Assembly (NCBI GenBank): GCA_947625195.1
Contig: CANQNK010000006.1
Span: 28,955 to 92,954 of the forward strand
Length of the DNA: 64,000 nt
Direction of reading: 5' to 3'
From: an uncultured Clostridia bacterium
Lineage (GTDB): Bacteria; Bacillota; Clostridia; Oscillospirales; Ruminococcaceae
In this document: piece after piece, positions 12,877 through 15,699 of the stretch
Numbering within the stretch: position 1 is the stretch's first letter
Layout: each line of letters starts with the position of its first letter
Notes under the pieces: generated by a model
Told to the model about the DNA's origin: nothing
What the model saw: only the letters and a program-made list of their open reading frames with translations
The model's database searches: none
Translations under genes and position numbers: made by a program

Positions 12877-13125
12877 TTAGTTCTGATTTGAATACTTGCT
12901 TTTTACTTCCTGAATTTTCTGCTGTTCAACCGGTTTTTCATTATACCAGCCCTTTTGCGACATCTGCTTGTAAAGGGTATCCTGAATACAAAGCGACTCG
13001 TTGAGAGCCTTTGAAAACGTCTGTCTTACATTTCCAGGCGTAGATTCAATAGTTCCGTGCATATAAAGGTCACACACACCTTTTTCGGTAAGCAGTATAC
13101 CCTCCATCAAATTCTGATCGTTCAT
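12877..13125 (-). CDS. CotF-like spore coat protein
   Basis: 82 aa: MNDQNLMEGILLTEKGVCDLYMHGTIE... then ALNESLCIQDTLYKQMSQKGWYN and a Gln-rich end. This matches the small coat-F family of Clostridia, helical ferritin-like-half proteins placed in the spore coat. It indicates a spore-forming lineage. A second, 57-aa helical protein on the same strand lies 43 bp upstream, so the two may be cotranscribed late in sporulation. Start has AAAGGAATG upstream. Confidence 0.8.
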   Translation of the reverse strand: MNDQNLMEGILLTEKGVCDLYMHGTIESTPGNVRQTFSKALNESLCIQDTLYKQMSQKGWYNEKPVEQQKIQEVKSKYSNQN

Positions 13126-13168
13126 AACTTAAATCATTCCTTTCCTTCTGAAAATTTAATTTTCGTCT

Positions 13169-13342
13169 TTAAAGCAGTCCGTACAAGCTCTTGAAAATCT
13201 GATCGTGCTTTTGCATCAGCTCTGAAACACAGGTTTTAAGCTCAGCGTCCTCAAGCTTTGACAATACGTCCTTGCACTGGGATTTAAAAAACTTTTCATG
13301 GCTCAGTGCGTCTTCTACATAAAGCAGGTCTTTTGAAGTCAT
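13169..13342 (-). CDS. 57-aa helical protein, coat-associated candidate
   Basis: Too short for the ORF track. ATG at 13342 with GGAAAGGAATGG upstream; it reads MTSKDLLYVEDALSHEKFFK... and ends KSLYGLL. The pattern of two amphipathic helices with YVEDALSHEKFF and LSKLEDAELK is like the small ferritin-fold partners encoded next to CotF-type proteins in Clostridia (known family pattern; my assignment is inference). It lies 43 bp upstream of the CotF-like gene on the same strand. Confidence 0.65.
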   Translation of the reverse strand: MTSKDLLYVEDALSHEKFFKSQCKDVLSKLEDAELKTCVSELMQKHDQIFKSLYGLL

Positions 13343-14124: not shown

Positions 14125-14146
14125 CTGCCCGAAAGATATCGGGCAG
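14125..14146 (-). terminator. Terminator of the VanY-like gene
   Basis: CTGCCCGA-AAGATA-TCGGGCAG, 8-bp stem, 22 bases beyond the stop codon on the minus strand. Confidence 0.6.
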
Positions 14147-14167: not shown

Positions 14168-15298
14168 TTAATCTGCCGAAGGTATAAACGGCGTAACCGT
14201 AGTGGTTGTAATATTAGAAACTACTGTTTCTTTGGAGTCAAATACACTTGCCGAAGTATCTGTCTGAGCAGCAGAATCCTGATTATCGCCTGCGCCTTGA
14301 TCTTCTGCGGGAGCGCTTGTCGTCTGAGCCGATGATTTCTCTACAGCAACTGTCACAATATAACCGTCTGAATTATTTCCGGATACAGAGTATGTATACT
14401 CCGTTGCATCGTCCTTCGTCGGAATCTTCACGTCAGTGGTGTTGCCTTTCTTCATTTCTGTGTAATAAACAGCGTATTTAATTCCGTTAGAGCCGTCGTA
14501 CTCAAGAGGACTTTCATAAGTATAGCTCTTTAGATATTCAACGTATTCCTCAAGACAAAAGCCGTTTTCGTTCATAATCTCTGCGTGCGGAAGACCCACA
14601 TATCTTATAAGCGCAGCATCATACTCCGCTTTGGTAATATCACTCTTGCCCTCTGGATATCTGACAACAAAACCGTATTTTGCCATATTTTGTGTAATCC
14701 ACTCAAAATCTCCAGTGCCGTCATATGTTCCCATAGCACCGTCGGCCCACGTTCCCAGACTTAGAGAAAGCCCCGTTCCTACATCGTTGCTTCCTGCTGC
14801 AAAAGCTTCTCCATCCTGATTATCGTTTGAAACGAATCCGCTGGCAATAAACAGTGTGGAGTTCTGATACTTCTTGTAAAAGTCACTCATCATCGACTGC
14901 AATTGCAAAGCCGCAGATTCGGTAGCAGTTACCGAGCTGTCAGTGAGCGAAAAAAGCTGATTTCCGTCGCTGTCGGTGTTGTACCCCATCAATGACACAA
15001 CCTCGCCTGAAGCGTCCTTATCAAAAGTGTGCTCACCATTTACCAAAGCGAGATTTCCGCTGGATAAAGCATCGTCATTCTGTAATGTCAACGTTGTAGA
15101 GGTTTTAAACAAAACCGATTCCGATTCCTTATCGGCAACCTTGCTCTCGGTAATAGTCTGAACCTTTTTGGCATTCGGGTTGATATCAGCAGTTCCGTTA
15201 GAGCAAGCCGCACATATAATAAGTATCACCAGCAAAATAATTGCAAGTAAAACCGCAACATTTTTATATTTCAAGTTTTTCCAGATATTATTCGACAT
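14168..15298 (-). CDS. VanY-like (M15B) lipoprotein lacking zinc ligands
   Basis: 376 aa with a basic start, a hydrophobic segment at 14-31 and a lipobox-like IICAACS (C29 or C32), so membrane-anchored outside the cell. From about residue 80 it follows the VanY D-alanyl-D-alanine carboxypeptidase fold: NLALVNGEHTFDKD, IASGFVSNDNQDG (SGYRS position), NDVGTGLSLS at 171-180, FEWITQNMAKYGFVVRYPEGK at 198-218 and YDAALIRYVG at 226-235. In active enzymes the last motifs read SxHxxGxAxD and EPWHxRYVG; here the His, Asp, Glu and His positions are Val, Ser, Asp and Leu. It should not be a zinc peptidase; a peptidoglycan-binding or sensing role is inferred. The C-terminal ~60 residues are Thr/Ser/Gln-rich. 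Confidence 0.8.
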   Translation of the reverse strand: MSNNIWKNLKYKNVAVLLAIILLVILIICAACSNGTADINPNAKKVQTITESKVADKESESVLFKTSTTLTLQNDDALSSGNLALVNGEHTFDKDASGEVVSLMGYNTDSDGNQLFSLTDSSVTATESAALQLQSMMSDFYKKYQNSTLFIASGFVSNDNQDGEAFAAGSNDVGTGLSLSLGTWADGAMGTYDGTGDFEWITQNMAKYGFVVRYPEGKSDITKAEYDAALIRYVGLPHAEIMNENGFCLEEYVEYLKSYTYESPLEYDGSNGIKYAVYYTEMKKGNTTDVKIPTKDDATEYTYSVSGNNSDGYIVTVAVEKSSAQTTSAPAEDQGAGDNQDSAAQTDTSASVFDSKETVVSNITTTTVTPFIPSAD

Positions 15299-15490
15299 TG
15301 TAATTCCTCCGTAATACCTTTAAGTTTATTGTACAATCGTCTATCGCCGAAAGGGCAACAGACTTTTTAAACAGTATACCACACTTTCCAAATTTTTTAA
15401 AGAGGAAATTACAAAGTGTGACTTTTTACACAAAATTTTTTATTTTAAATTGTTACATTTGCATATAAATTTTAAATAAAAGTGCAAAAT

Positions 15491-15540: not shown

Positions 15541-15699
15541 TTAGTTGTTTGAATTGTTAGAATTCTTGTTGCTAGGGTTCTGTTTTTTATTAGAGCCGCC
15601 GTTAGGTGTTTTATTTGAAGGGCAGTTCTGGTTCTGATTCTGATTATTTTCCGAATTGTTCGGTGCTTTGTTTTGTGAATTGTTATTCTGGTTTTGCAT
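15541..15699 (-). CDS. 52-aa Asn/Gln-rich protein
   Basis: Not in the ORF track, which lists an Arg/Thr-rich shadow frame instead. ATG at 15699 has AAAGGAGTG at a good distance and the gene ends in TAA 19 bases before a strong terminator, so the unit is complete. The product begins MQNQNNNSQNKAPNN and about 29 of 52 residues are Asn or Gln (22 Asn), with one Cys and several Pro, Ser and Lys. No fold is expected. Low-complexity Asn-rich proteins of this size occur among spore or coat proteins in Clostridia; a role there is a guess. Confidence 0.75.
   Translation of the reverse strand: MQNQNNNSQNKAPNNSENNQNQNQNCPSNKTPNGGSNKKQNPSNKNSNNSNN

Follow-up and report, generated by a model that had tools for sequence, protein, structure and literature searches.

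A 64,000-nucleotide stretch of genomic DNA from an uncultured Clostridia bacterium, from now on referred to as the window, encodes a membrane-anchored VanY-family protein in which the zinc site and nearly the whole substrate pocket have been replaced and the surrounding fold has been kept. The gene is complete (14168..15298, minus strand, 376 amino acids) as judged by its open reading frame, its homology and the presence of an orthologue in all 15 genomes examined from its genus. On comparative grounds the protein is well supported as a pseudoenzyme, that is, a retained homologue with lost catalytic residues and a fold under purifying selection, and it is almost certainly not a zinc carboxypeptidase. 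A preliminary description made from the window alone had called it a VanY-like lipoprotein and pseudoenzyme candidate; the gene coordinates and all motifs quoted there are correct.

Membership in the VanY/peptidase family M15B is established beyond chance by both sequence and fold, in agreement with the original VanY-like assignment. Pfam VanY (PF02557) matches at E 4.5e-8, above the gathering score, and NCBIfam vanY_AFMPt (NF000472) matches residues 61-317 at E 1.4e-33 and 116.3 bits, far below the exception cutoff of that model (425 bits), which places the protein outside the VanY-A/F/M subfamily. The nearest characterised protein is VanY-A (33% identity over residues 75-320), with the best plasmid matches coming from vanA clusters, and a sequence search of the PDB identified VanXYG (E 6.9e-20) and LdcB proteins as the nearest solved structures. 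Structure prediction, proposed in the preliminary description as a check, was carried out using AlphaFold2. The full-length protein modelled with four close orthologues gave a model that was not usable (pLDDT 34); the domain by itself, with three viral VanY proteins added to the input, yielded a model of medium confidence (pTM 0.67, mean pLDDT 59). Foldseek matched this predicted domain best to VanXYG (4f78; E 1.1e-10 over 217 columns including the C-terminal subdomain), and the top 24 matches were all VanY, VanXY or LdcB proteins. Based on these models, the extracytoplasmic VanY-like domain spans residues 80-321 (14336..15061, minus strand) and includes a C-terminal subdomain (residues 263-321; 14336..14512, minus strand), recognised by homology and fold match, which carries SGNNxDGYIVTV as found in VanY-A and VanXYG.

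The alignment with VanY and LdcB proteins runs in register through the former active site, where SxHxxGxAxD has become NDVGTGLSLS and EPWHxRYVG has become DAALIRYVG. The first degenerate motif lies within GSNDVGTGLSLSLG (residues 169-182; 14753..14794, minus strand) and is preceded by a loop about 15 residues shorter than usual, the second occupies residues 227-235 (14594..14620, minus strand). The zinc ligands His, Asp and His are replaced by Val173, Ser180 and Leu230, and the catalytic Glu by Asp227, exactly at the positions named in the preliminary description. In the LdcB-product complex, the substrate is held by Arg120, Ser151, Trp206, Tyr201, Glu204 and zinc (PMC4087270). The counterparts of Arg120, Ser151, Trp206 and Tyr201 are Val156, Asn171, Ala229 and Ala224, with Val156 found in SGFV (residues 153-156; 14831..14842, minus strand), which takes the place of SGYR. 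Gln161, equivalent to LdcB Gln125, is the sole pocket residue retained. The preliminary description was thus right about the ligands and the Glu and too narrow in its estimate of the loss, which extends to the pocket residues and the loop. Of the features that mark a VanY/M15B D,D- or L,D-carboxypeptidase, the protein lacks the His/Asp/His ligands, the catalytic Glu and the pocket Arg, Ser and Trp. His and Cys residues in the ectodomain are limited to H90, H238 and C248, the latter two being invariant in the clade of five species described below, so that no substitute for the usual triad is evident and a replacement zinc site is very unlikely.

A single hydrophobic anchor is present at the N-terminus (residues 12-33; 15200..15265, minus strand) and closes with ...IICAAC, the last residue being Cys32. 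Cys32 is kept in 15/15 genus orthologues. However, the five-species clade carries a Cys at position -3, unlike the usual lipobox, making the motif non-canonical; the lipobox of the ten remaining congeners (ASSC/AASC) is acceptable. Judged by this motif, the earlier designation of the window protein as a lipoprotein is uncertain.

Each of the 15 genomes of the genus encodes a single-copy orthologue, and none of these orthologues has the complete ligand set. Five genomes, each of a different species (that of the window, G001, G013, G008 and G006), show a fully lost site. Among these, the patch GSNDVGTGLSLxLGTWxD is invariant, as is GSNDVGTGLSLSLG apart from position 180. Conservation among orthologues, suggested earlier as a check, holds for the altered site as a whole, with V173 the only one of the four altered residues that is itself invariant (180 is S/D, 227 is D/N and 230 is L/Q). 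The orthologues of the other ten genomes read SESHTGLSID...EPWHLRYVG; in these, the first His ligand is changed to Ser and the Arg, Gln, Asp, Glu, Trp and second His are retained. These congeneric genes (L009-L018), in which the remainder of the site is invariant, represent a natural half-way state, and catalysis might persist in this part of the genus. A shifted His ligand in SESHTGLSID was considered and found to be unsupported; intact relatives often carry SEHHTG, and the second His of the congeners is therefore probably ancestral. The neighbouring gene for chorismate mutase/prephenate dehydratase splits the species identically (72-91% versus 57-59% identity), and full loss was therefore probably a single event in one species group.

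The replacements could in principle reflect a decaying gene or a sequencing error, an explanation for which nothing speaks beyond the lost residues themselves and to which we assign a negligible probability. The same loss is found in five assemblies of different species, and the absence of any genus orthologue with full ligands runs counter to the scenario of normal orthologues and a local error that the preliminary description had considered. Reading frames are open in 15/15 genomes. dN/dS is 0.03-0.10 in the two degenerate-clade pairs for which saturation of synonymous sites allowed it to be computed, and sister orthologues fall in the same range. In the absence of constraint, half of the observed divergence should already have produced about 7.7 stop codons, and none is seen. 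Low dN/dS and open frames therefore exclude error and decay. Expression signals are also in place. A GGAGG ribosome-binding site (15306..15310, minus strand) lies 5' of the ATG, and consensus matches indicate a promoter-like site (TTTAAA-17-TATACT with TG before the second hexamer; 15373..15401, minus strand) and a terminator-like hairpin 3' of the gene (14125..14146, minus strand). With signals of its own at both ends, the gene looks monocistronic. Purifying selection, open frames, the VanXYG fold match and the lack of an evident alternative site all bear out the original suggestion of a pseudoenzyme.

Loss of the VanY site extends beyond this genus, a recurrent pattern that could not be seen from the window alone. 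Homologues were collected from 299 genomes of the bacterial family; the 170 that were aligned include a small number from elsewhere in the order. An incomplete site was found in 99/170, a fraction that is not an unbiased frequency because the sample was retrieved with a degenerate query; an order-level sample drawn with an intact query contained mostly intact members and a few degenerate ones. A C-terminal subdomain was recognisable in 106 homologues; of these, 34 retain the full set of four catalytic residues and 19 retain none of the four. The 34 with an intact site show no variation (34/34) at Arg120, Gln125, Ser151, His153, Asp160, Glu204, Trp206 and His207 (numbered as in LdcB). Half of these eight positions served to define intact, and the Arg, Gln, Ser and Trp are independent of that definition. 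Degenerate homologues retain the Arg in 40/98, the Gln in 51/98, the Ser in 43/98 and the Trp in 27/98 cases. The structural positions (TG, YG, RY, RYVG and LEEY) are kept at 85-100% in the same 98 proteins, most of them at more than 90%. On a tree built without the motif columns, the intact/lost label changes 11 times, with at least 5 changes forced by well-supported branches; a thinned set analysed under a mixture model gave 8 changes, at least 4 of them forced. The method used leaves root and direction out of account, and the changes are read as losses because the intact state is that of the characterised enzymes. On the evidence of alignments and trees, the family has lost the VanY site several times over, and repeated replacement of the site with the fold kept suggests that such proteins assist or sense at the cell wall without cutting.

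At the window locus, the neighbouring genes encode MscL, an AraC-type regulator, chorismate mutase/prephenate dehydratase, an alpha/beta hydrolase and tRNAs. No partner gene linked to the VanY-like gene was found there, and no conserved neighbourhood hinting at a wall role was found across the five-species clade. Between the VanY-like gene and mscL lies an extremely Asn/Gln-rich ORF of 52 amino acids with one CPSNK stretch (15541-15699, minus strand); ORFs overlapping this interval have weak matches in two relatives. Two short ORFs of spore-coat type are located at 12877-13342 (minus strand), the first of which (82 amino acids) matches Pfam Coat_F at E 1.6e-17. The genome of the window also encodes two VanY paralogues with complete sites, so that trimming need not depend on the window protein. 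One intact-site paralogue (L220:1201-2064) has a divergent C-terminal tail of its own. In most of the ten congeners, the orthologue is found beside a family-4 glycosyltransferase gene and near an LCP (LytR-CpsA-Psr) gene; no close homologue of this glycosyltransferase was found in the window genome.

Two further associations are found in other degenerate clades. A separate clade with RDxH/SDCH motifs adjoins genes for serine D-Ala-D-Ala carboxypeptidases (Peptidase_S11) at 9/41 degenerate loci, all belonging to that one clade, compared with 0/19 intact-site loci. SxxK and KTG are kept by the adjoining S11 protein in eight loci, and the intergenic gaps range from -70 to +105 nt. Direct adjacency of this kind was observed in other genera of the same family (L275-L284), and in L282-L284 a further S11 homologue without SxxK is encoded downstream, possibly placing two pseudoenzymes side by side. 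In two degenerate members from one genus (L264:122-2860; L265, minus strand, a 931-aa ORF), a PlsC-type acyltransferase is fused to the N-terminal side and connected by an acidic linker and a single membrane span; these ORFs of approximately 910-930 amino acids include a long acidic region. With the degenerate VanY domain outside, the PlsC fusion could possibly provide a direct link from wall to phospholipid. For the window protein, associations seen in other clades are leads, not proof.

We propose that the window protein is a single-pass, envelope-anchored VanY (M15B) pseudopeptidase that would no longer bind zinc or act as a D,D-carboxypeptidase, its gene being kept for a non-catalytic task. 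The preserved fold would most likely offer a docking surface for a protein partner at the cell wall, allowing the protein to take part in wall maturation as an adaptor, regulator or sensor, on the model of degenerate LytM factors or of Sonic hedgehog, which has an M15 fold. Lack of activity, protein docking and the identity of any partner are what we infer here, and the chances that the protein has such a non-catalytic envelope role appear to us about evenly balanced. A broader and more tentative proposal, which we hold to be somewhat improbable in its entirety, is that the family has converted the VanY fold several times into envelope adaptors or sensors, some coupled to S11 enzymes and some wired through the membrane to a PlsC-type acyltransferase, with the window protein as a member whose docking cleft has been remodelled.

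The preliminary description had instead favoured retention for binding, in which the old cleft would still hold stem peptides or D-Ala-D-Ala without cutting them and the protein would serve as a wall sensor or inhibitor. Such a sensor or inhibitor role is possible, and the kept fold, the structural cleft residues and Q161 (LdcB Gln125) are consistent with it. However, the equivalents of Arg120, Ser151, Trp206, Tyr201 and Glu204 have all been replaced together with the zinc that completes the LdcB pocket (PMC4087270), the lid loop is shortened, and across the bacterial family substrate residues were lost together with the ligands. Binding through the old pocket is weakened because the substrate-contacting residues went with the zinc ligands, and we regard it as rather unlikely.

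A surface module unrelated to wall enzymes, which would recognise a non-wall ligand such as a host or dietary glycan or another surface protein, could account for the conserved patch GSNDVGTGLSLxLGTWxD that has replaced the active site and for the lack of a conserved wall-gene neighbour in the five-species clade. The membrane anchor and short linker, however, place the domain close to membrane and wall, members of a related clade are linked to S11 carboxypeptidases, and the orthologue of the congeners lies beside a glycosyltransferase gene and in most cases near an LCP gene; we consider this explanation unlikely. Pseudoenzymes with new chemistry exist, and a replaced motif that is strictly conserved across five species would also fit the acquisition of a zinc-independent hydrolytic or transferase activity. 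The one invariant His and the one invariant Cys, however, belong to the motifs PHA and CLEEY, which also occur in relatives whose zinc site is retained. Therefore, nothing both new and catalytic-looking has appeared, and new chemistry seems very improbable. The adaptor, regulator or sensor role remains the reading we prefer.

The open-access papers searched contained no earlier account of pseudoenzymes in the VanY family, and in the searched parts of a 2024 review of pseudometallopeptidases Sonic hedgehog alone was found listed for M15. Proteins of this kind are grouped under the name D-alanyl-D-alanine carboxypeptidase, which probably misdescribes many of those encoded in this bacterial family, also where they turn up in scans for vancomycin-resistance-like genes. 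If a non-catalytic role were confirmed, it would raise the question why one enzyme family so often loses its site here.

Compared with known systems, the window protein has the catalytic-domain fold and C-terminal subdomain in common with VanY-A, VanY-F and VanY-M (NF000472) and with VanXYG (4f78). In contrast to these enzymes, it is without zinc ligands, catalytic Glu, substrate Arg, Ser and Trp and lid loop, and its gene is located outside any glycopeptide-resistance cluster. The L,D-carboxypeptidases LdcB, DacB and YodJ (M15B) likewise share the fold and the motifs SG[YF], TGL, YGF..RY, RYVG and LEEY; the zinc ligands of LdcB, said to be universal there (PMC4087270), are absent from the window protein. 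The N-terminal domain of Sonic hedgehog has an M15 fold without peptidase activity, as proposed here, and its pseudoactive site is a protein-binding site (PMC11266112). Unlike the window protein, it keeps its zinc ligands, and it is an animal signalling protein that is not close in sequence. Degenerate LytM factors such as DipM and EnvC set a precedent for non-catalytic action (PMC10336132), and EnvC, NlpD, ActS and DipM (M23) all use a peptidoglycan peptidase fold without catalysis for the regulation of wall hydrolases (PMC10336132, PMC8360153). They belong to another peptidase family, are Gram-negative and have known partners; no comparable link to a wall hydrolase was found at the window locus, and a related degenerate clade adjoins S11 carboxypeptidases. 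With its non-catalytic role confirmed, the window protein would represent an M15 counterpart of the LytM-factor principle in Gram-positive bacteria.
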